In this document: in pieces, positions 7,525-19,545 of the stretch | Numbering within the stretch: the stretch's first letter is position 1 | How the letters are laid out: each line of letters starts with the position of its first letter | Assembly: GCA_016214955.1 (NCBI GenBank) | Contig: JACRMN010000017.1 | Coordinates: forward strand, 124,001 to 188,000 | Direction: 5' to 3' | DNA length: 64,000 nt | Source of the DNA: Deltaproteobacteria bacterium | GTDB taxonomy: Bacteria > Myxococcota > Myxococcia > Myxococcales > Anaeromyxobacteraceae | The notes under the pieces: generated by a model | Told to the model about the DNA's origin: nothing | Seen by the model: the letters and a program-made list of their open reading frames with translations, nothing else | Databases searched by the model: none | Program-made: the position numbers and the translations under genes

Positions 7525-8325
7525 TCAGATCCCGGTGACCCCCGCCCGGAAGATGGCGAGCCCGCCCGGCTCCTGCGCCTCGATCTCCTTCTTGCGGCGG
7601 GCGTAGTCGGGGTGGTGCCAGGGGTAGAGGAAGGCGTCGGGGTGGGGCATGAGCCCGAGGATGCGGCCGGTGGCGTCGGTGACCCCGGCCACGCCGCGGG
7701 CGCTGCCGTTGGGGTTGTGGGGCCAGGCCTCGGTGGGCTGGCCCGCCGGGTCGAGGTACCGGAACGCGACCTGGCGGCGCTCCTCCAGCCGCGCCAGGGC
7801 CGCGTCCGACTCGACGACGAACTTCCCCTCGCCGTGGCGCGCCGGCACCTCCAGCGTGGAGAGGCCGCGGGTCCAGGCGCAGGCCGAGCGCTCGTCGGCG
7901 CCGAGCCGCACCCAGGCGTCGCGGTAGCCGAGCCTGTCGTTGTTGGCGAGGGCGGCGCGGGGCACGAAGTCGTGCGGGCCCGCCTCCGGCCCGGGCAGGA
8001 GACCCAGCCGCACCAGCACCTGGAAGCCGTTGCAGATGCCCAGCACCCGGCCGCCGTTGGCCAGGAAGGACGAGAGCTCGGCCTGGAGGTGGGCGCGCAC
8101 GCGGGTGGCGGCCACGAAGCCCGAGGCCACGTGGTCGCCGTAGGAGAAGCCGCCCACGAAGGCCAGCACCTGGTAGCCGGGGATCGGGAGCGGGGCCCGA
8201 CCGGCGAAGAGGTCGGTGAGGTGGACCTGATCCACCTCGGCCCCCACCATGCGGAAGGCGGCCGAGGTCTCCTCCTCGCAGTTGAAGCCGAAGCCCACCG
8301 GGACGAGCACGCGCACCGGCTTCAT
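7525..8325 (-). CDS. purQ: Phosphoribosylformylglycinamidine synthase, glutaminase subunit
   Basis: PurQ feeds ammonia to PurL in step four of purine synthesis. It is 266 residues, longer than the 220-230 of the Bacillus type and closer to the glutaminase domain of the large single-chain enzymes. The nucleophile Cys98 is in VLGICNGFQVL and the His partner lies in GLMPHPDAFLYPWHHP. The start ATG overlaps the purL stop as ATGA, so the two subunits are translated together. The N-terminal segment VLVPVGFGFNCEEETSAAF is typical. It converges with the DUF6351 gene. Confidence 0.95.
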   Translation of the reverse strand: MKPVRVLVPVGFGFNCEEETSAAFRMVGAEVDQVHLTDLFAGRAPLPIPGYQVLAFVGGFSYGDHVASGFVAATRVRAHLQAELSSFLANGGRVLGICNGFQVLVRLGLLPGPEAGPHDFVPRAALANNDRLGYRDAWVRLGADERSACAWTRGLSTLEVPARHGEGKFVVESDAALARLEERRQVAFRYLDPAGQPTEAWPHNPNGSARGVAGVTDATGRILGLMPHPDAFLYPWHHPDYARRKKEIEAQEPGGLAIFRAGVTGI

Positions 8326-11324
8326 GCGGCACCCCCTTCCCGCTTCCAGGCTCGCGTCAGATCGTCCACCGGGGCCTCGAGCAGCGTGCGGCCGCCGAGC
8401 CGCAGCCGGAGCACGCCGCCGGCGTCGAAGCTGCCCAGCACCCCGTGGGGCACGCCCGCCAGCGCACCGCGGAGCCGGTCGAGCTCCCCGGGCCGGCAGG
8501 CGAGCAGGAAGCGGCCCGGGGTCTCGCCGTAGCAGAGCCCCTCCCAGCCGGTGCCGGGTGCGGCCGGAGCCGCCGAGAGGTCGGCCGCGAGGCCCAGGCC
8601 GCCGGCGCGGGCCATGAGGAAGAGCGCCGGGGCGAGGCCGCCGCGCCCCACCGCGTGGGCCGCGGCCACCAGCCCGGCGGCGATGGCCTCGCCCACCTTC
8701 CGGTAGCCAGGCCAGAGCTCGGCCGGCCGGCAGCGGGGCACCTCGCCGCCGGCGAGGCCGCGCGCGGCGGCCCACTCGGTGGCCCCCAGCTCCTCGCGGC
8801 TCTCGCCCACCGCCAGCAGCACCAGCCCGGGGCCGGAGGGCTCGAGCGTCACCGCGCGTCGAACGTCGCGGACGAGCGCGATGGTGGAGGCGAGCAGCGT
8901 CGGCGGGATGGAGATGCGCTTGCCGCCCACCACCGCGTCGTTCTTCATCGAGTCCTTGCCGCTGATGAGCGGCACCCCGTAGGCGAGGCAGATCTCCTGG
9001 AGCCCGCGGGAGGCGCGGACCAGCTGGGCGGCCTTCAGCCTGGCGTCGGGGTTGGAGGGGCCGGGCAGCGGGTCGGGCCAGCAGTAGTTGTCGAGGGCGG
9101 CGATGCGGTCGGTGCGGGCGCCGGCGGCGATCACCCGGCGCACCGCCAGGTCCACGCCGGCCTGGGCCATGGCGTGGGCGTCCTGGTCGGAGTAGCCCGG
9201 GAACACCGCCTCGGAGACGGCGTAGCCGGCCGGCGAGGCGTCGTGGGCCACCAGGAACACCGAGGCGTCGGAGGGCACGTCGCGGTGCACGCCCACCCAG
9301 GGCTTCACCACCGTGAGCGCCTTCACCTCGTGGTCGTAGGTGCGGCAGACGAGCTCGCTGGAGCGGAGGTTGTCGCGCGCCAGGAAGGCGGCGAGCTGGG
9401 CAGCGCCCTCGGCGGGCGTGGCCGGGGCGGCCAGCGGCGCGGCGGGCGCGGCCGGCCGCGGGGTCCACTCGGCCTCGATGCGCAGCGTCGGGTCGCCCTC
9501 GTGGAGGAAGTCGAGCGGCAGGAGCGCCACCACCTGGCCGCGGAAGCGGACCTCGAGGTGGCCGTCGTCGGTGAAGGCGCCGAGGTCGGTGGCCTCCACC
9601 TCGCGCAGCTTCGCCAGCGCCAGCAGCGCCGGCAGGCTCGAAGGCGGCACCGCCAGCGTCATCCGCTCCTGGGCCTCGGAGACCAGGATCTCCCAGGGCG
9701 CCAGCCCCTGGTACTTGAGGGGCGCGCCGGTGAGGTCGAGGCAGGCGCCGCCGGGCTGCTTCGCCATCTCGCCCACCGAGGAGGAGAGGCCGCCGGCGCC
9801 GTTGTCGGTGATGGCCGAGTAGAGCCCCTGCTCGCGGGCCTCGAGCAGGAAGTCGAACATCATCTTCTGGGTGATGGGGTCGCCGATCTGCACCGCCTGC
9901 ACCGGGCTCTCCTCGGTGAGCTCCGCCGAGGAGAAGGTGGCGCCGTGGATGCCGTCCTTGCCGATGCGGCCGCCCACCATGACGATGCGGTCGCCGGGCC
10001 GGGCCAGCTTCACGTGGGTGGGGCGGCCGGCGGAGACCGCCGGCATGCGCCCGACGGTGCCGCAGTAGACGAGCGGCTTCCCCAGGTAGCGCTCGTCGAA
10101 GAGCTCCCAGCCGCGGCCGTAGGGGATGCCCGACTGGTTGCCGCCGTCGATGACGCCGTGGTGCACCCCCTCGCGGATGCGGCGCGGGTGGAGCAGGCCG
10201 GGGGGCAGCTCGCCCTTCCAGGCCGGGGGCCCGAAGCAGTAGCCCCAGACGTTGGAGAGCAGGTCCGCGCCCAGGCCGGTGCCGAAGGGATCGCGGTTCA
10301 CGCCCACGATGCCGGTGATGGCGCCGCCGTACGGGTCGAGGGCCGAGGGGCTGTTGTGGGTCTCCACCTTGAAGACCAGGTGGTAGGCGTCGGTGGCGGC
10401 GATGACGCCGGCGTTGTCGTGGAACACCGAGACCAGCCAGCTCTTCCCCTCGCGGGCCACGATGGCCGCGTCCACGGCGCTGGTGGTGCCGCGGATGTAC
10501 TGCTTGAAGATGGAGCGGATCTCCTCCGGCTCCTTGCCGGCCTCGCGGTAGGTGACGTCGGCGTTGAAGATCTTGTGCTTGCAGTGCTCCGACCAGGTCT
10601 GGGCCAGGCACTCCAGCTCGGCGTCGGTGGGCGCGGCGCCCAGGCCCGCGGCCCGGCGGCGCGGCTCCTCCGCGGCCCGGGCGAAGAAGTCGCGCACCGC
10701 CTTCATCTCCTCCACGGAGAGGGCCAGGAGCTTCTCGCGCGAGAGCCTGGCCAGCGCCGCGTCGTCGAGCCCGGCGAGCGGCACGGTGGCGGTGGGGCGC
10801 GGGGCGTGCTCGGCCACCCGCGGCACCGTGAGGTCGGGCGCGCTCGCCTGCCACTCGCCGAAGGTCTGCACCCCGACCCGCTCGATGACCTCGTTGGCGA
10901 GCAGCCTGGTGGCGATGGCGGCCGCCTGCTCCCGGGTGACGCCGGAGAGGAGGTAGATCCGCGAGGCGTAGACGGCGCCGTGGTCGCCGAGCTTCCGGCC
11001 CAGCAGGTCCTCGATGGCCACCCGGGCCGACTTGCCCACCGGGTCGGTGACGCCGGGCCTGTAGCCCACCGAGACCGCCACGTCGAAGGGGCCGTCCTCC
11101 ACCCGGCCCACCGCCCCCTGGCGCACCACCGGGCCGGCGAACTCGGCGGCCACGCGGGCGGCGTCGGCCGGCGGCAGGGCCGGCTCCACGTGGTAGACGT
11201 CGCGGGTCCGGACGGCGCCGACGGCGACGCCCAGGTGCTCGCGGATGGCGCGCGCGACGGAGAGCCCGCGGCTGTCGGCGAAGCCGGCGCGGGTGGCGAT
11301 CTCGATGCGGGTGACGTCGGCCAC
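8322..11324 (-). CDS. purL: Phosphoribosylformylglycinamidine synthase, large subunit with PurS-like N-terminal domains
   Basis: PurL makes FGAM from FGAR with ATP and PurQ-derived ammonia. At 1000 residues it is much longer than the roughly 740-residue Bacillus PurL. The first 170 residues contain two PurS-like stretches (IEIATRAGFADSRGLSVA, and AVSVGYRPGVTDPVGKSA), then a linker, the catalytic segment TWSEHCKHKIFNADVTY, and two synthase-type halves. It lacks the amidotransferase domain, which is PurQ. GTG 11324 is chosen with GGAGG about 10 bases upstream; ATG 11357 would lie inside a plausible -10 box. Separate purS was not seen, consistent with fusion here. Confidence 0.93.
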   Translation of the reverse strand: MADVTRIEIATRAGFADSRGLSVARAIREHLGVAVGAVRTRDVYHVEPALPPADAARVAAEFAGPVVRQGAVGRVEDGPFDVAVSVGYRPGVTDPVGKSARVAIEDLLGRKLGDHGAVYASRIYLLSGVTREQAAAIATRLLANEVIERVGVQTFGEWQASAPDLTVPRVAEHAPRPTATVPLAGLDDAALARLSREKLLALSVEEMKAVRDFFARAAEEPRRRAAGLGAAPTDAELECLAQTWSEHCKHKIFNADVTYREAGKEPEEIRSIFKQYIRGTTSAVDAAIVAREGKSWLVSVFHDNAGVIAATDAYHLVFKVETHNSPSALDPYGGAITGIVGVNRDPFGTGLGADLLSNVWGYCFGPPAWKGELPPGLLHPRRIREGVHHGVIDGGNQSGIPYGRGWELFDERYLGKPLVYCGTVGRMPAVSAGRPTHVKLARPGDRIVMVGGRIGKDGIHGATFSSAELTEESPVQAVQIGDPITQKMMFDFLLEAREQGLYSAITDNGAGGLSSSVGEMAKQPGGACLDLTGAPLKYQGLAPWEILVSEAQERMTLAVPPSSLPALLALAKLREVEATDLGAFTDDGHLEVRFRGQVVALLPLDFLHEGDPTLRIEAEWTPRPAAPAAPLAAPATPAEGAAQLAAFLARDNLRSSELVCRTYDHEVKALTVVKPWVGVHRDVPSDASVFLVAHDASPAGYAVSEAVFPGYSDQDAHAMAQAGVDLAVRRVIAAGARTDRIAALDNYCWPDPLPGPSNPDARLKAAQLVRASRGLQEICLAYGVPLISGKDSMKNDAVVGGKRISIPPTLLASTIALVRDVRRAVTLEPSGPGLVLLAVGESREELGATEWAAARGLAGGEVPRCRPAELWPGYRKVGEAIAAGLVAAAHAVGRGGLAPALFLMARAGGLGLAADLSAAPAAPGTGWEGLCYGETPGRFLLACRPGELDRLRGALAGVPHGVLGSFDAGGVLRLRLGGRTLLEAPVDDLTRAWKREGGAA

Positions 11325-11354
11325 GGGGTTCGGAGCCTCCGGAAGGAAGGCGCC

Positions 11355-11384
11355 CATATACCCGATTCCAGGGGGGCGGGTCAG
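11355..11384 (-). promoter_or_regulatory. Candidate sigma-70 promoter for purL-purQ
   Basis: Read on the minus strand, CTGACC at 11384-11379 and TATATG at 11360-11355 are 18 bases apart and resemble -35 and -10 boxes. A transcript would start near 11347 and give a leader of about 20 bases containing GGAGG before the GTG at 11324. In a region this GC-rich a TATA-like run is unusual. No operator-like palindrome was seen beside it. Confidence 0.4.
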
Positions 11385-11480
11385 CGTCCGCCGCGGGGGC
11401 CAGGCGGGTGCCCGGGCAGCCGGCACCGGGGCGATCCTGGGACGTGCACCGGGGCCCTCCCTGGGTGAAGATAGGCGCCG

Positions 11481-14096
11481 ATGTCGACGGCCGTGTCCGC
11501 CCGCCGCAGGGAAGTCTTCGCCGCCGCCCGCATCGAGCGGGAGGCCTTCGTCCGCCTCGACCCCTCGCGGCTCCGCTTCTCGCTCGGCACCACGCCCGGC
11601 GACCCGCGGGTGCCGGTGCAGGTGACCGCCGAGGCCAGCGCCATCGCCCAGGGTGCCGCCGCCGACCTGGCCCTCTTCCTCTCCACCGTCCACCGCCACA
11701 TCGTGGCCGCTGACGACCTCGACCGGCTGGTGATGAGCGAGGGGTACGCGCTCCTGCCCATGCCCGCGCCCACGCTGGGACCGAGCGGCGGCGGGCTCGA
11801 CCTGCGCTCGGCCGCCGAGGCCGGCCAGGCGGCCCACCCGGCGCTCACCGGCGGCATCCTCTGCGCCTGGATGGGACCGGGAGGCCGCGGCCGCTCGCTC
11901 ACCGCCCTGTGGATCGAGGCCATGAAGAGCGCCCTCGCCGAGATGAAGGGGGCCGACCCGGAGGAGGAGACGCCGCTCATCGCCGCCCTGGCGCTCCACG
12001 GCGAGCTCCTGGCCGCGGCCGAGGGGGCGCGGGAGCGGCTGGCCGGGCCGCCGGTCGACAGGTACCTGCGCTCGGCGGTGGGGCTGGGGCTGTGGGTCGC
12101 GGCCCGCACCGGCCTGCAGCGCGCCTGGCGCGACGCCGGCAGGCCGCCGGCCGATCCGCTCCTGACGCGGGTGGAGGCCGTCCTGGCGCCGGGGCCCCTG
12201 CTCGGCCGGGCCAAGCTCACCGGCGTCACGCTCTACGGCTGCGATCTGGGCGCCGGCATGCCGCGAGCCGAGGAGGAGGTCTCGCGGCTCGCCGGTGGCG
12301 CCGACCCGGAGGCGGTGGTCGACGACCTGGCCTCGCTGCTCGCCTCCGACGCGGCCGCGTCGCAGCGGGCGTCGCTGGCGGTGGCGGTGGGCCGGATGCG
12401 CGACCTGCTCACCGGGGCGCTGCTGGCGGCCGAGCCCGGCGGCCACGGCAACCTGCTGGCGCCGCTGCGGCAGCGGCTCACCGCGCCCGGTGGGCTCCTG
12501 GAGGGGCTGGCCGAGGAGCCGGGGCGGCGGGCGCTCAAGGCCGAGCTGGCCGCGGGCGAGGCGCTGCCCGGCGAGGCCAGCCAGATCCTGGCCGAGGCGG
12601 GTCGGGTGTTGAAGCGCTGGCGGGGGCGCGACCCGGCGGCCGCCTTCGGCCTGGGGTTGCCGGCCGCCTGCCGCGAGTACGCCGGATGCGTCGCCTCGGC
12701 GCTCTGCGACGCCGCCCTGGAGCGCTGGATGCAGCCGGCGCGCCGCTCGCTCCTGCGGCGCACGGGCCAGGAGACCGAGGCCGGCGCCGACGCCGAGTGG
12801 GAGGGCGGGCGGCTCTACCGGATCTCGGCCCGCGGCGGCCCCATCTTGAAGCAGGCCCGCCAGCAGCGCCACGGGCAGCTCTTCGCCGACGTCAAGGACT
12901 TCACCCGCCGCACCGGGCTCCTGGGCCAGGCGCCCATGGCCGAGTTCCTGCGCACCGAGTTCTACGGGCCCATCCTGGCCGCCGCCAAGCGCTTCTACGG
13001 CGGCATGAGCCACCTCTCCGACCGCGGCGGCGTCTCGCTCAACAACCTGCTGGGCGACGCCATCTCCTTCACCGGCGACATCGAGTCGCTGGTGGCGCTG
13101 GCCATGGAGGTGCGCCGCATCCTGGCCGACTACCAGACGCGGCTCCTGCGCCAGGTGTCGAACGAGAGCGTGGCCCGGCAGCTCGCCGAGATCGACTCGC
13201 GCCACCGCGAGGGCGTGGCCCGCGTGCGCCGCGACGCGTCCCGGGCGCGCGCCGCGCTGGAGCAGGCGCCACCGGGCACCGCCGCCCAGGTGGAGGCGCT
13301 GGCGCAGGTGGCGCGCCTGGCCGGCGAGGAGGAACGGCTGGGGCGCGAGCGCGAGCAGGCGCTGGCCAGGGCCCGGGGCGAGGGGCTGGAGGCCGGCGTC
13401 TTCATCTCCTTCGGCGCGCCGCCGCAGGTGGTGCTCATCGACGACGAGGTCTTCGGCCAGAACCGGGTGGCCATCGGCGACAAGATCAACGAGTCGGCCC
13501 GAGGCACCACCCGCTCGCCGCTGGGCCGGGCCCGCGCCGACGGCGAGCTCCTGGCGGCGCGCGCCGCCCGCAAGAGCGCTCGCCTGGCCCACGCCTGGGC
13601 GGTGTTCGTGGACCACCCGCTCACCGTGGCGCTGCCGGCCCACGTGGAGCGGGAGGCGCTGGCCGCGGCCCGCTCCGGCGACACCGCCGGCGCGCTCCAG
13701 GCGGCGGCCGGCCCGCTGCGCGAGGCGCTGGCCCAGGCGGCGCGCGGCCTGGGCTCGGAGGAGCCGGGCGAGCTCTACAACGCCGGCGCCGCCCTCTCCC
13801 AGGAGGCCCTCGACGCCTTCCTCGAGGCCACCCGCAAGGCGCGCATCGTCCGCGAGGTGGTGCTCGACCCGGCGGCGGTGCCGGCGGAGCTGCTGGCCCG
13901 CTGGTTCTACGGCACGGCGCCGCAGCCGCTGGTGGCCACCTTCCAGACCGACGGCCGCCCGGCCGAGCTCTTCCGCCGCGTCGGGCGCGCCGCCATGAAG
14001 GGGCTCGGCGACGTGCCGGTGTGGGAGATCGCCGCCGGGCCCGGTGCCGAGGCGCTGGTGCGCACCCTGGGCGCGGGCTGGCTCCAGCTGGAGTAG
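11481..14096 (+). CDS. Large protein with a divergent class III nucleotide-cyclase domain and coiled-coil insertion
   Basis: I do not recognise a named family for this 871-residue protein. Residues 1-440 are helical and Ala/Leu-rich with no clear domain. From about 465 there is a cyclase-like signature: LFADVKDFT (Asp470, the first metal ligand), a helix AEFLRTEFYGPILAAAKRFYGG, then LNNLLGDAISFTGDI (Asp526, the second metal ligand). An insertion rich in Arg, Glu and Ala (about 545-640) looks like a coiled coil. The fold resumes at GVFISFGAPPQVVLIDD and AIGDKINESAR, where Asn670 and Arg674 match the transition-state pair of GDxVNxAAR. About 200 further residues follow. No signal peptide or membrane segment is seen, so it is probably cytoplasmic. 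It could be an inactive relative. Confidence 0.7.
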   Translation: MSTAVSARRREVFAAARIEREAFVRLDPSRLRFSLGTTPGDPRVPVQVTAEASAIAQGAAADLALFLSTVHRHIVAADDLDRLVMSEGYALLPMPAPTLGPSGGGLDLRSAAEAGQAAHPALTGGILCAWMGPGGRGRSLTALWIEAMKSALAEMKGADPEEETPLIAALALHGELLAAAEGARERLAGPPVDRYLRSAVGLGLWVAARTGLQRAWRDAGRPPADPLLTRVEAVLAPGPLLGRAKLTGVTLYGCDLGAGMPRAEEEVSRLAGGADPEAVVDDLASLLASDAAASQRASLAVAVGRMRDLLTGALLAAEPGGHGNLLAPLRQRLTAPGGLLEGLAEEPGRRALKAELAAGEALPGEASQILAEAGRVLKRWRGRDPAAAFGLGLPAACREYAGCVASALCDAALERWMQPARRSLLRRTGQETEAGADAEWEGGRLYRISARGGPILKQARQQRHGQLFADVKDFTRRTGLLGQAPMAEFLRTEFYGPILAAAKRFYGGMSHLSDRGGVSLNNLLGDAISFTGDIESLVALAMEVRRILADYQTRLLRQVSNESVARQLAEIDSRHREGVARVRRDASRARAALEQAPPGTAAQVEALAQVARLAGEEERLGREREQALARARGEGLEAGVFISFGAPPQVVLIDDEVFGQNRVAIGDKINESARGTTRSPLGRARADGELLAARAARKSARLAHAWAVFVDHPLTVALPAHVEREALAAARSGDTAGALQAAAGPLREALAQAARGLGSEEPGELYNAGAALSQEALDAFLEATRKARIVREVVLDPAAVPAELLARWFYGTAPQPLVATFQTDGRPAELFRRVGRAAMKGLGDVPVWEIAAGPGAEALVRTLGAGWLQLE

Positions 14097-14137: not shown

Positions 14138-15004
14138 ATGGTCGCTGCCGTGCAGGACTCGCTCCCTGTCGCGGCGCTCGCGGCGCTCCTGGCCGCGCTG
14201 GCGGCCCTCGCCCTCTGGGCCTGGCTCCGCCGCCGGGGCCGGCTGCCGGGGAGGCGGCGCTGGCGGCCGGTCCGCCCGCCGCTGCCGGTGGTGCTGGTGC
14301 ACGGCCTCTTCGGCTTCGACGAGCTGGCCATCGGCAGGAAGCGCCACGCCTACTTCCGCGGGATCACCCCCCGGCTCCAGAAGGCGGGCCGCAAGGTGAT
14401 CCAGGCGCGACTCCCGGCGGCTGGCAGCGTGGAGCGGCGGGCCGAGGCGCTCGCCGCCGCGGTGCGGGCGCTCCCCGACCGGCGGGTCATCCTGCTCGCC
14501 CACAGCATGGGCGGGCTCGACGCCCGCCACGCCATCGCCCGGCTGGGCCTCGCCCCGCGGGTGGCGGCGCTGGTGAGCGTGGGGACCCCGCACCGCGGCA
14601 CGCCGCTCGCCGACCTGACGGCCGACCTCGCCGGCCGCCTGGGCATCGTCCGGGCCCTGGCCTTCGCCGGCGTGAGCCTGGAGGCGCTGCGCGACCTCAC
14701 CGGCGAGCGGCTCCTGCGGTTCAACGAGGAGGCGGCCGACGTCCGCTCGGTGGCCTATGCCAGCGTGGTGGGCACCGTCCGGCGCAAGCGCCGCGTCCAC
14801 CCGCTGCTCCTCCCGGGCCACCTGTGGCTGGCCGAGAAGAGCGGCGACAACGACGGCGTGGTGCCCGCCGACTCCCAGCGCTGGGGCGAGGTGGTGACCG
14901 AGATCGACGCCGACCACTGGGCGCAGATCGGCTGGTCGCGGCACTTCGACGCCGGCCGCTTCTACGTCCGAATCCTGGAGGAGCTCGAGGCCTCCGGGCT
15001 GTAG
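14138..15004 (+). CDS. Membrane-anchored lipase-like alpha/beta hydrolase
   Basis: This 288-residue protein has an N-terminal hydrophobic anchor (residues 8-30, Ala/Leu-rich) then an alpha/beta hydrolase of the bacterial triacylglycerol-lipase type. The oxyanion strand is PVVLVHGLFGFDELAIG, the nucleophile is Ser123 in LLAHSMGGLDARHA, and the acid and base are probably Asp in KSGDNDGVVPADS and His in DADHWAQIG. The segment SVGTPHRGTPLAD is also characteristic of lipases. The anchor suggests inner-membrane attachment with a periplasmic domain. It begins 41 bases after the cyclase-like gene; co-transcription is possible. Lipid substrate is inferred only from family. Confidence 0.85.
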   Translation: MVAAVQDSLPVAALAALLAALAALALWAWLRRRGRLPGRRRWRPVRPPLPVVLVHGLFGFDELAIGRKRHAYFRGITPRLQKAGRKVIQARLPAAGSVERRAEALAAAVRALPDRRVILLAHSMGGLDARHAIARLGLAPRVAALVSVGTPHRGTPLADLTADLAGRLGIVRALAFAGVSLEALRDLTGERLLRFNEEAADVRSVAYASVVGTVRRKRRVHPLLLPGHLWLAEKSGDNDGVVPADSQRWGEVVTEIDADHWAQIGWSRHFDAGRFYVRILEELEASGL

Positions 15005-15131: not shown

Positions 15132-15668
15132 ATGTTCGAGCAGTTCCAGGCCCGCGCGCAGGCCGTGAGCGCCGAGGTCCACCGCTTCGCGGGCGCCGGC
15201 CCGGCGCTCGACTTCGTCGTGCACACGCTGCTGGCCGAGGGGGTGGCGCCCGAGCCCGGGCGCCGTGCCGTCTGGTGCCCGGGGCCCATCCTCGGCCCTC
15301 CCGAGCCGGAGCGCCTGGCGCGCGAGCTGCCCGGCCTCACCTTCGAGGTCACCCGGGCCGCCGCCGCCGAGAGCAAGGTGGGCGTGAGCGAGCTCGACTG
15401 GGCGATCGCCGACACGGGCACCCTGGCCCAGGACGCCACCGATCCGCGGCGCCGCCTGCCCTCGATGCTCACCGAGACCCACCTGGCCGTCTTCCGCACC
15501 GCCTCCCTGGTGCCCGACCTGGCGACGCTGCTGGCGCGCGTCGACCCGCGCCGGATGCGCTACCTCACCTGCATCACCGGCCCCTCCCGCACCGCCGACA
15601 TCGAGCGGGTGCTCACCATCGGCGTCCACGGCCCCAGGCGGCTGCTGGTCGTCGCCGTCGACGCCTGA
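15132..15668 (+). CDS. lutC: LutC-type LUD-domain protein of lactate oxidation
   Basis: LutC is one of three proteins of the LutABC L-lactate oxidation complex. The 178-residue protein has the LUD-domain pattern: ELDWAIADTGTLAQDA in the middle, MLTETHLAVFRTASLVPDL and the ending TCITGPSRTADIERVLTIGVHGPRRLLVVAVD, where the GPSRTADIE stretch is the family hallmark. It lies 10 bases before the LutB-LutA fusion gene, so the two form an operon. No lactate permease or LldR regulator is adjacent in this window. Confidence 0.92.
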   Translation: MFEQFQARAQAVSAEVHRFAGAGPALDFVVHTLLAEGVAPEPGRRAVWCPGPILGPPEPERLARELPGLTFEVTRAAAAESKVGVSELDWAIADTGTLAQDATDPRRRLPSMLTETHLAVFRTASLVPDLATLLARVDPRRMRYLTCITGPSRTADIERVLTIGVHGPRRLLVVAVDA

Positions 15669-15678
15669 GGAGCGCGCC

Positions 15679-17820
15679 ATGGCCGACCGCACCGGTTTCC
15701 ACGAGCACATCGCCGAGGCGCTGCAGAACCCCAACCTCGCCGGCGCCCTGGGCCGCTTCAGCGAGGCCTACGCCATCTCGCGGGCCAAGGCCTACGAGGG
15801 CATCGACTTCGAGAAGCTGCGCGACCAGATCGTCGAGGCCAAGGGCAACGCCGCCGGCAAGCTCGACGTCCTGGCCGGGCGCTTCGAGGCCGAGGCCACC
15901 CGGGCCGGCGCCCGCGTCTTCCGGGCGGGGAGCCCGGAGGAGGCCCGCGACTACATCCTCCGGCTCTGCCGCGACAGGGGCGTGAAGCGGGTGGTGAAGT
16001 CCAAGTCCATGGCCACCGAGGAGATCCACCTCAACCAGGCCCTGGAGAAGGAGGGGATGCGGGTCAAGGAGACCGATCTCGGCGAGTGGATCATCCAGCT
16101 CGCCGGCCAGCGCCCCAGCCACATGGTCATGCCGGCCATCCACATGACCAAGGAGGAGGTGGCGGCCATCTTCTCCAAGGAGGTGAAGGAGCGGCTGGCG
16201 GCCGACATCCCGCGGCTGGTGGCGGTGGCCCGCCAGGAGCTGCGAGAGGAGTTCCTCCAGGCCGACCTGGGCATCAGCGGCGCCAACCTGGCGGTGGCCG
16301 AGACCGGCTCGCTGGTGATCCTCACCAACGAGGGCAACGCCCGCCTGGTGACCACGCTCCCCCGCATCCACGTGGCGGTGGTGGGCGTGGAGAAGCTGGT
16401 GGAGCGCATGGCCGACGTGGTGCCGGTGGTGCGGGCCCTGCCGCGCAGCGCCACCTCCCAGCTCCTCACCAGCTACCTCTCGGTCCTCACCGGCCCGGCC
16501 CCCGGGCCCGAGGGCGAGCAGAAGGAGCTGCACGTCGTCCTGCTCGACAACCGCCGCACCGCCATGGGGGCCGACCCGCGCTTCGCCCAGGCGCTGCGCT
16601 GCATCCGCTGCGCCTCGTGCCTCAACGTCTGCCCCGTGTTCCGGCTGGTGGGAGGCCACGTCTTCGGCGACGTCTACACCGGCGGCATCGGCGCCATCCT
16701 CACCGCCTGGTTCGACGCCCTCGAGGCCTCGGAGCACATCCAGGGGCTCTGCATCCAGTGCGGCAACTGCACCCAGGTGTGCCCGGCGCGCATCGACATC
16801 CCCGAGATGGTGGTGGAGCTGCGGCGCCGCCTGGCGAAGGAGCAGGGGCAGCCTCTGCTGCAGAAGGGCATCTTCCGCATCGTCAACGACCGCCGGCTCT
16901 TCCACTCCATGCTGCGCGCCGCCTCGCTGGCGCAGAAGCCCTTCGCCCGCGACGGCATGATCCGCCACCTGCCGTTCTTCCTCTCGGGCCTGGCCGAGTT
17001 CCGCTCCCTGCCGGCCATCGCCCGTCGGCCCTTCCGCGACCGCTTCCGCGAGATCGAGCAGCCGCGGGGGCTCTCCGAGAAGGTGGCCTTCTACGCCGGC
17101 TGCCTCGTCGACTTCGCCTACCCGGGCACCGGCGAGGCGGTGGTGAAGGTGCTGAACCGCGCCGGCATCGAGGTGGTGTTCCCCGAGGCCCAGACCTGTT
17201 GCGGCGCCCCGGCCCGCTACGCCGGCTCCTTCGCGGTGGCGGCGCAGAACGCCAGGGACAACGTGGCGGCGCTGGAGGGCGCCGGGGCCAGCGCCGTGGT
17301 CTCGGCCTGCCCCACCTGCACGGTGGCCCTCACCCGGGAGATGGCGGAGACGCTGGAGGCCGAGGGCGAGCACGAGTGGGCGGTGCGCGCCCGCAAGCTG
17401 GGCGAGAAGGTGGTGGACTTCTCCACCCTGGTGAAGCGGCTGGTGGACCAGGGCCGCCTCCGGCTCGTGCCCGGCGAGGGGCTGCCGGCGGTCACCTACC
17501 ACGACTCCTGCCACCTGAAGCGCACGCTCCGCGCCGAGAAGCCGCCGCGCCAGCTCCTCCAGGCGGTGGGCCACGAGGTGAAGGAGATGTTCGAGAGCGA
17601 CATGTGCTGCGGCATGGGCGGCAGCTACTCGCTCAAGTTCCCCGAGATCTCCAAGCCCATCCTCACCCGCAAGCTGGAGAGCATCCGCAAGACCGGCTGC
17701 GGGACCGTGGCCCTCGACTGCCCCGGCTGCGCCATGCAGATCCAGGGCGGCCTCCACAAGGCCGGCGACGCCGTGCAGGTGCGCCACCTGGCCGAGATCG
17801 TGGCCGAGCGGCTGGCGTAG
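15679..17820 (+). CDS. LutB-LutA fusion, iron-sulfur lactate oxidation protein
   Basis: This 713-residue protein joins two usual Lut subunits. Residues 1-300 are a LutB LUD domain (RVVKSKSMATEEIHLN, ADLGISGANLAVAETGSL). Residues about 305-375 carry two 4Fe-4S sets, CIRCASCLNVCP and CIQCGNCTQVCP. The C-terminal 250 residues are LutA-like with two CCG motifs (TCCGAPARYAGSF and MCCGMGGSYSLKFPE) and further cysteine segments SACPTCTVAL and LDCPGCAMQ. It oxidises lactate to pyruvate with LutC, delivering electrons to a carrier not identified here. Such fusions are known in delta-proteobacteria and other anaerobes. All expected cysteine motifs are intact. Confidence 0.92.
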   Translation: MADRTGFHEHIAEALQNPNLAGALGRFSEAYAISRAKAYEGIDFEKLRDQIVEAKGNAAGKLDVLAGRFEAEATRAGARVFRAGSPEEARDYILRLCRDRGVKRVVKSKSMATEEIHLNQALEKEGMRVKETDLGEWIIQLAGQRPSHMVMPAIHMTKEEVAAIFSKEVKERLAADIPRLVAVARQELREEFLQADLGISGANLAVAETGSLVILTNEGNARLVTTLPRIHVAVVGVEKLVERMADVVPVVRALPRSATSQLLTSYLSVLTGPAPGPEGEQKELHVVLLDNRRTAMGADPRFAQALRCIRCASCLNVCPVFRLVGGHVFGDVYTGGIGAILTAWFDALEASEHIQGLCIQCGNCTQVCPARIDIPEMVVELRRRLAKEQGQPLLQKGIFRIVNDRRLFHSMLRAASLAQKPFARDGMIRHLPFFLSGLAEFRSLPAIARRPFRDRFREIEQPRGLSEKVAFYAGCLVDFAYPGTGEAVVKVLNRAGIEVVFPEAQTCCGAPARYAGSFAVAAQNARDNVAALEGAGASAVVSACPTCTVALTREMAETLEAEGEHEWAVRARKLGEKVVDFSTLVKRLVDQGRLRLVPGEGLPAVTYHDSCHLKRTLRAEKPPRQLLQAVGHEVKEMFESDMCCGMGGSYSLKFPEISKPILTRKLESIRKTGCGTVALDCPGCAMQIQGGLHKAGDAVQVRHLAEIVAERLA

Positions 17821-17919: not shown

Positions 17920-19545
17920 ATGAGTCCCAAGGAGATCGCGCGCCGGCGTACCTTCGCCATCATCTCGCACCCCGACGCCGGCAAGACCACCCTCACCGAG
18001 AAGCTGCTGCTCTACGGCGGCGTGATCCAGCTCGCCGGCGCGGTCAAGGCCAAGCGCGGCCGCGCCAGCGCCGTTTCCGACTGGATGGCCATCGAGCGCG
18101 AGCGCGGCATTTCCATCACCACCTCGGTGCTGCAGTTCCCGTGGCGCGGCTACCAGCTCAACCTCCTCGACACCCCCGGCCACGCCGACTTCAGCGAGGA
18201 CACCTACCGGACGCTGCACGCCGTGGACGGCGCGGTGATGCTCCTCGACCGCGCCAAGGGCGTGGAGGCCCAGACCAAGAAGCTCTTCCGGGTCTGCAAG
18301 CAGCGGGCGATCCCCATCTTCTCCTTCGTCAACAAGATGGACCGGCCCGGCCGCGACCCCTTCGACCTCATCGGCGAGGTGGAGGCGGTGCTCGGCATCG
18401 GCGTCTTCCCCGTGACCTGGCCCATCTTCCGCGAGGGCACATTCCGCGGCGTCTGGCACCGGCTGGCGCGGCGGGTGTACCTCTTCGACGCCGGCCACGC
18501 CTCCTCCTCGGCCGGCGTGGGCGCCGAGCGGCCGCCGGTGGAGGTCACCGGCATCGACGACCCGCTGGTGCGCGAGGAGCTGGACGAGGAGGGGCACGAC
18601 CGGCTGCGCCACGACGCCGAGCTGCTCGAGGCGGCCGGCGACGAGTTCGACCAGGAGCGCTTCCTGGCCGGCGGACTCTCGCCCCTCTTCTTCGGCTCGG
18701 CCATCAACAACTTCGGCCTCGAGCCCTTCCTGGAGACCTTCTGCCAGCTCATGCCGCCGCCGCGCAGCCGCGCCACCGACCAGGGGCCGGTGGCGCCGGA
18801 GCGGGCCGAGTTCAGCGGCTTCGTGTTCAAGGTGCAGGCCAACATGGACAAGGCCCACCGCGACCGCGTGGCCTTCGTGCGCATCTGCTCCGGCAAGATG
18901 GTGCGCGGCATGAAGGTGACCCACGTGCGCACCGGCAAGCAGGTGCGCCTCGCCAACCCGGCGCAGTTCATGGCCCGGGAGCGCAACGTGGTGGACGAGT
19001 CCTTCCCCGGAGACGTGGTGGGCGTCCACGACCCCGGCACCTTCGAGATCGGCGACACCCTCACCGAGGGCTCGCTCTTCTCCTTCGAGCCCATCCCCAG
19101 CTTCGCCCCCGAGCACTTCGCCCGGCTGGTGATGGTCGACCCGCTGAAGCGCAAGCAGTTCGGCCGCGGCATCGAGCAGCTCGCCCAGGAAGGCACCATC
19201 CAGCTGTACCACCCGCCCGCCGGCCGCACCGGCGACCTGGTGCTCGGCGCCCTGGGGCAGCTCCAGTTCGAGGTGGTGAAGTACCGGCTGGAGGAGGAGT
19301 ACGGCGTGGCCGTCCGGCTGGAGGGGGTGCCCTGGCAGCTGGCGCGCTGGCCGCAGCGGCGCGACGGCGGGCCGCTGGACCTCGACCACCTGTCCTCGGC
19401 GGTGGAGGGGATGGTGGTGCTCGACGTCCGCGACAGGCCGGTGGTGCTCTTCGACAGGCCCTGGGCGCTCCAGACCGCCGAGCGGCTCCACCCCGAGTAC
19501 CTCTTCAACGAGACGGCGGTGGGCGTGGTGGTGCGCGCGGCGTGA
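17920..19545 (+). CDS. prfC: Peptide chain release factor 3
   Basis: RF3 is a translation GTPase that removes RF1 or RF2 from the ribosome after termination. The 541-residue length fits. GTPase motifs are seen in order: SHPDAGKTTLTEKLLLYGG (G1), the switch segment MAIERERGISITTSV, DTPGHADFSEDTYRTL (G3) and NKMDRPGRDPFDL (G4). The RF3 insertion and the C-terminal domain (QLQFEVVKYRLEEEYGV) follow. It is transcribed after lutB-A with a 99-base gap and seems a separate unit. No oddity was noticed. Confidence 0.96.
   Translation: MSPKEIARRRTFAIISHPDAGKTTLTEKLLLYGGVIQLAGAVKAKRGRASAVSDWMAIERERGISITTSVLQFPWRGYQLNLLDTPGHADFSEDTYRTLHAVDGAVMLLDRAKGVEAQTKKLFRVCKQRAIPIFSFVNKMDRPGRDPFDLIGEVEAVLGIGVFPVTWPIFREGTFRGVWHRLARRVYLFDAGHASSSAGVGAERPPVEVTGIDDPLVREELDEEGHDRLRHDAELLEAAGDEFDQERFLAGGLSPLFFGSAINNFGLEPFLETFCQLMPPPRSRATDQGPVAPERAEFSGFVFKVQANMDKAHRDRVAFVRICSGKMVRGMKVTHVRTGKQVRLANPAQFMARERNVVDESFPGDVVGVHDPGTFEIGDTLTEGSLFSFEPIPSFAPEHFARLVMVDPLKRKQFGRGIEQLAQEGTIQLYHPPAGRTGDLVLGALGQLQFEVVKYRLEEEYGVAVRLEGVPWQLARWPQRRDGGPLDLDHLSSAVEGMVVLDVRDRPVVLFDRPWALQTAERLHPEYLFNETAVGVVVRAA

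Follow-up and report, generated by a model that had tools for sequence, protein, structure and literature searches.

The window analysed here, a stretch of DNA of 64,000 nucleotides, encodes a protein that is probably a soluble, catalytically competent homodimeric class III nucleotidyl cyclase, representing a distinct subfamily with non-canonical base recognition. The class III reading follows from the predicted fold, the conservation of the metal-binding Asp pair, the Asn/Arg pair and a basic residue, and the map of insertions within the domain. The gene is an intact ORF with an ATG start and is present as a single copy in its own genome.

11481..14096, plus strand: whole gene, class III cyclase-like protein of 871 aa, homologues in 56 of 195 genomes of the phylum

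The fold links the protein to known cyclases. An AlphaFold2 monomer model, built on the same 55-protein family alignment (A3, mean column identity 35%) as the conservation analysis, reached pLDDT 91 and pTM 0.80. In this model, Asp470 lies near the end of strand 464-472 (beta1), Asp526 in the turn joining strands 518-524 and 527-532, and Asn670 and Arg674 on helix 667-674; as modelled, these positions reproduce the class III arrangement. The preliminary description had proposed checking for a different fold, and the model returned that of class III cyclases: residues 430-857 superpose on solved structures with Z 15-17 and rmsd 2.1-3.2 over 155-184 residues. Structural matches include sGC beta (8hbh, Z 16.9), Rv1264 (1y11, 16.6) and CyaB (3r5g, 16.5), as well as Ma1120 and CyaC, and the top Foldseek matches are cyclases with probability 1.00; a viral structure library gave no match.

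Sequence searches of the protein against Pfam, NCBIfam, PADLOC and PDB found no match, and hmmscan with PF00211 found none at E <= 0.1 in any of the 55 family members. The family is missed by standard annotation because its insertions split its motifs. Profile-profile comparison (hhalign) with 28 ordinary class III cyclases (PF00211 proteins) from the window’s phylum nevertheless connects the two groups with probability 95.8 and score 60.8, against a best score of 25.6 in 30 column-shuffled profiles and 9.9 for a reversed one. With the insertions removed, probability and score are 96.2 and 64.8. In the merged alignment, residues 470, 522, 526, 663, 670, 674 and 840 fall into the canonical columns D, K, D, T/D, N, R and K. 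Neither the N-terminal segments alone nor segment 700-871 alone has a profile-profile match to ordinary cyclases. The profile match of the second half of the cyclase domain by itself is likewise not significant (probability 2.4), so that assigning Asn and Arg relies on the spacing of the motifs, on the merged alignment and on the secondary structure of the model.

The cyclase domain spans about residues 440-868. The preliminary description placed the end of the core near residue 700; fold match and alignment together carry it on to about 868. Its parts are as follows.

12798..13154, plus strand: residues 440-558, first cyclase part (beta1-alpha1/2-beta2-beta3-alpha3), from the model, hhalign and fold match
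13155..13379, plus strand: residues 559-633, antiparallel helical hairpin in the alpha3-beta4 loop (helices 561-595 and 601-631), from the model
13380..13517, plus strand: residues 634-679, beta4-beta5-alpha4, from the model and conservation (0.68)
13518..13760, plus strand: residues 680-760, second, mainly helical insertion, from model helices 680-697, 720-731 and 735-756 and the Asn-Lys spacing
13761..14084, plus strand: residues 761-868, last cyclase part with the Lys hairpin (G835...K840-G841...E849), from the fold match to about 857 and the alignment

The extra length shows directly in the spacing of the catalytic residues. The two Asp residues are 56 positions apart here versus 44 in ordinary cyclases, Asp and Asn 144 versus 72-79 (with one at 64), and Asn and Lys 170 versus about 39. 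The additional residues sit in a longer beta2-beta3 hairpin, the hairpin 559-633, the second insertion of about 80 residues (~680-760) that follows the Asn/Arg helix, and a smaller one near 796-828 that precedes the final Lys hairpin. That last hairpin aligns with the ..G..vKGk..vyE end of class III cyclases. A coiled-coil insertion within the core, as first described, does exist in the form of the alpha3-beta4 hairpin; it is not single, there being at least two large insertions, the second of which (680-760) had been missed. The estimate of about 90 charged helical residues between the halves holds for the character of the segment, a charged helical hairpin, and not for its length, which is about 75 residues (559-633). 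The hairpin is Ala-rich, contains 35% D/E/K/R, and turns at PPG 597-599.

Segment 555-638 ranges from 10 to 177 residues among homologues, without any invariant residue; it measures 20 residues in L034, the nearest relative of the window protein (64% identical), and 10-24 in L063, L087, L075, L073 and L076, which occupy scattered positions in the tree. Its loss in L034 shows that the family can do without the hairpin, which is probably regulatory or structural, not catalytic. The variable length and the missing invariant residues are what might be expected if the inserted helices were a product of gene decay or a recombination accident in an ordinary cyclase. This is highly improbable: the ORF is intact in nearly all homologues, the whole ORF is kept at similar length and with the same architecture in two phylum-level samples, and conservation in the protein is highest in the two halves of the catalytic domain. 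Moreover, the hairpin-less L034 retains all catalytic residues, and as it sits in a clade of hairpin-bearing members, loss is the simpler reading. The earlier argument against simple decay is borne out by the intact ORFs and by catalytic positions kept in 55 of 55 homologues.

An insertion at this site is not without precedent, because the Delta-subdomain of trypanosome adenylate cyclases, a proposed allosteric site of 36 residues, occupies the same alpha3-beta4 loop (PMC6027212). The trypanosomal receptor adenylate cyclases (GRESAG4/ESAG4) thus share a helical insertion in this loop with the present family. Their Delta-subdomain is a compact deltoid of two helices, whereas the hairpin here is antiparallel and about twice as long in its ~75 residues; unlike the trypanosomal enzymes, the present protein has further insertions and no transmembrane receptor part. 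The two insertions probably arose independently. Searches of an open-access literature collection found no described class III cyclase with a coiled-coil insertion and no Anaeromyxobacter cyclases of such a type. The suggestion that the whole layout is undescribed needs narrowing: the loop insertion is known from trypanosomes (PMC6027212), and it is the Asn522/Val663 substitution and the 438-residue N-terminal domain that look new.

The catalytic residues lie in three motifs, LFADVKDFT from residue 467 (D470), LLGDAISF from 523 (D526) and GDKINESAR from 666 (N670, R674).

12888..12890, plus strand: Asp470, first metal-binding Asp, in 55/55 homologues and D in 28/28 class III cyclases
13056..13058, plus strand: Asp526, second metal-binding Asp in the beta2-beta3 turn, in 55/55 and D in 28/28
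13488..13490, plus strand: Asn670, transition-state/ribose Asn, in 55/55 and N in 28/28
13500..13502, plus strand: Arg674, transition-state Arg, in 55/55 and R in 28/28
13998..14000, plus strand: Lys840, counterpart of the phosphate-binding Lys, K in 33 and R in 18 of 55 homologues, K in 26/28 ordinary cyclases

The two Asp motifs and the Asn/Arg pair had been reported as retained, and the residues are exactly those named. In the conservation check proposed earlier, all four are invariant in the 55 homologues; they also line up with D, D, N and R in all 28 ordinary class III cyclases from this phylum. Class III membership also demands a basic residue in the last beta hairpin, and Lys840 is present there. 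Across the 55 proteins, 27 columns are invariant (including D470, D526, N670, R674, K472, G525, V663, E671, G675 and R678): 14 in residues 439-558, 8 in 634-679, 3 in 761-868 and 2 in the N-terminal 438. The cyclase parts therefore hold 25 of the 27, and neither insertion has any. The chance that all four named positions fall among 27 of 871 is 7e-7 by a naive random draw, a figure that is only indicative because the sequences are related. Residues 634-679 are the best-conserved part of the protein, with a mean top-residue frequency of 0.68.

The two positions that read the base are a different matter. In class III cyclases, base recognition by these positions is established knowledge, and both are altered here, a change that the preliminary description overlooked.

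13044..13046, plus strand: Asn522, at the position of the purine-specifying Lys, N in 53/55 homologues, K in 28/28 ordinary cyclases
13467..13469, plus strand: Val663, at the position of the second base-specifying residue, V in 55/55 homologues; T 17, D 9, S 1, A 1 in ordinary cyclases

At the position four residues ahead of the second metal-binding Asp, the family has Asn in 53 of 55 members and Ser in the other 2, where ordinary cyclases have Lys throughout (28/28). Seven residues before the catalytic Asn, Val is fixed (55/55), compared with Thr or Asp in 26 of 28 ordinary cyclases. Both the adenylyl pair (Lys with Asp/Thr) and the guanylyl pair (Glu with Cys) are absent. Such a pair is not required for class III membership; its absence does bar the label adenylyl or guanylyl cyclase, and with Asn522/Val663 nearly fixed, ATP cannot be assumed as the substrate. 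This substitution is probably the most informative feature of the protein. Compared with PF00211 cyclases such as Rv1264 (1Y11), P. aeruginosa CyaB (3R5G) and sGC beta (8HBH), the family is thus alike in fold, Asp pair, Asn, Arg and the Lys/Arg position, and differs in being unmatched by the Pfam model, in its longer spacings and in having Asn/Val in place of Lys and Thr/Asp.

Altered base-reading residues raise the question of a pyrimidine-specific cyclase, making cUMP or cCMP instead of a purine product. Asn stands at the purine-reading Lys position in 53 of 55 members; in the cytidylate cyclase EaPycC, R142, at the same spacing four residues before D146, contributes to the choice of CTP, and PycTIR receptors and a CD-NTase subclade use Asn to recognise uracil (PMC11224242). 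Pycsar PycC enzymes resemble the present protein in combining a class III core with non-purine base-reading residues (PMC11224242), but their specificity residues are different, and the helical N-terminal domain of 438 residues is a feature of this protein. Searches for Pycsar membership found no match to any PADLOC defence-protein model and no PycTM/PycTIR effector adjacent, the neighbours reading as housekeeping genes. Since the base-reading residues of PycC vary by clade and none is reported with Asn/Val, the substrate cannot be inferred from them. By this analogy a pyrimidine substrate is conceivable but not indicated, and a dedicated pyrimidine cyclase is considered quite unlikely.

Another divergent bacterial offshoot of class III, DUF2652 (PF10851), was recognised by profile methods only and has altered substrate residues (PMC4886424). 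Its members are single-domain proteins of about 250 aa with, for example, Glu/Lys and His/Arg sets, as against 871 aa here. The DUF2652 profile matches 1 of the 55 members (E 0.013), and hhalign gives a non-significant probability of 2.1 with a shallow DUF2652 alignment; DUF2652 as the nearest family is not supported.

The altered purine positions (N522, V663) also bear on whether the protein turns over substrate at all. It had been left open at first whether this is a signalling enzyme or a nucleotide-binding scaffold. A pseudo-cyclase, binding nucleotide and metal as a sensor or scaffold but performing no turnover, would fit the change at both positions, the appearance of either K or R at the Lys position, and a neighbourhood with no conserved partner gene or operon pointing to a signalling circuit. 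In degenerate cyclases, however, the metal Asp, Asn and Arg typically drift first, and invariance of all four in 55 divergent proteins is unexpected if the chemistry has been lost. Conservation favours the enzyme, though sequence by itself does not settle the choice, and the pseudo-cyclase is regarded as unlikely.

In front of the cyclase domain lies a large region, given as 440 unassigned residues in the preliminary description and in fact 438 residues long, without a Pfam or NCBIfam family match.

11481..12794, plus strand: residues 1-438, all-helical N-terminal domain without a matching solved structure, from the model and Foldseek

Modelled alone, this region is almost all helical (pLDDT 93.5, pTM 0.93). 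Foldseek found no match in PDB at E <= 0.001, and the best PDB Z is 6.9, to a designed helical cage, which is within noise for helical models. The lack of a PDB match for the N-terminal model does not prove a new fold. The top Foldseek matches, membrane transporters, have low probability, and a PAS_5 match below cut-off (E 0.077), which falls in the helical N-terminal domain, was rejected. No segment of the window protein passes a typical cut-off for a membrane helix (maximum Kyte-Doolittle 1.38). R307 is invariant in the 55 homologues, and W130, G137 and D410 are nearly so. Regulation or sensing is the most likely role of the domain.

For the preferred reading, a competent class III cyclase, a mechanism can be proposed. 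Two chains would pair head to tail as a homodimer. Asp470 and Asp526 of one chain would bind two Mg/Mn ions and the triphosphate, and Asn670, Arg674 and Lys840 of the other would position the ribose and stabilise the transition state, yielding a 3',5'-cyclic mononucleotide and pyrophosphate. The base would be read by the Asn522/Val663 environment, not by a Lys-Asp/Thr or Glu-Cys pair. The 438-residue helical domain would act in regulation or sensing, and the alpha3-beta4 hairpin might be a non-essential appendage that regulates the enzyme or tunes the dimer, in line with what has been proposed for the trypanosomal Delta-subdomain.

Many myxobacteria and members of related lineages carry the family, with a single copy in each genome. 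In protein searches, homologues turned up in 33 of 60 genomes (the window’s own included), and scanning GTDB contigs yielded 59 named loci, most of them in Anaeromyxobacter-like MAGs, Archangium, other Myxococcota/‘Deltaproteobacteria’ MAGs and Candidatus Zymogenus. With the A3 profile, the family is found in 56 of 195 genomes and 37 of 90 genera of the window’s phylum, as well as in 18 of 198 genomes from the phylum to which a Zymogenaceae MAG belongs. Its distribution is patchy: within the window’s own family most other sampled genera carry the gene, but one (g3, including G004, G009, G013 and G016) has it in no sampled genome. In a quick tree, the window protein groups with L034 and other Anaeromyxobacteraceae.

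The neighbourhood gives no family-wide partner gene or conserved operon; flanking genes cluster within clades only, and gene neighbours differ between the window genome and other genomes. Read by eye, the genes flanking the homologues are presumably housekeeping genes (glnA, accD, larE-like, mnmA-like, thioredoxin-like, purQ). In the window, the cyclase-like gene is divergent from a PurS-PurL-like gene (8325-11357, minus strand), and an alpha/beta hydrolase gene (14138-15004) begins 41 bp downstream. The former encodes a 1011-aa FGAM synthase whose single chain carries a PurS-like segment (residues 93-163) ahead of the PurL parts, and a separate PurQ-like frame follows at ~7525-8330. An open frame of 1773 aa (8322-13643, minus strand) runs from PurL antisense through most of the cyclase gene and looks like a high-GC artefact upstream of a PurL start near 11357. 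Farther along, 15132-17820 holds a LUD-domain protein and a LUD/4Fe-4S/CCG protein of lactate-utilisation type; peptide chain release factor 3 comes next (17920-19545). In some relatives (L067, L077, L085, where it is immediately upstream, and L073, L076), the gene upstream on the same strand reads as purQ or as that of an MTAP-like phosphorylase. This recurring purine-metabolism neighbourhood, with PurL in the window and purQ/MTAP-like genes in relatives, may be coincidence.

What emerges is a full-length cyclase family overlooked by standard annotation, with one copy per genome in lineages whose lifestyles are complex. Hairpin-bearing and hairpin-less homologues form a natural series that bears on the role of alpha3-beta4 insertions. 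The boldest interpretation is that of a conserved, unannotated class III family of Myxococcota and neighbouring lineages whose product is a non-standard cyclic mononucleotide, whose base specificity depends on an Asn/Val pair, whose controlling helical domain has a new fold and which serves single-copy, non-defence signalling; taken as a whole it is a long shot. If true, cUMP or cCMP, for example, would be made outside phage defence, with the base read by an Asn/Val pair unreported for described cyclases. With the change at the base positions fixed in the family, either answer on the substrate would extend the rules of substrate choice in class III cyclases.
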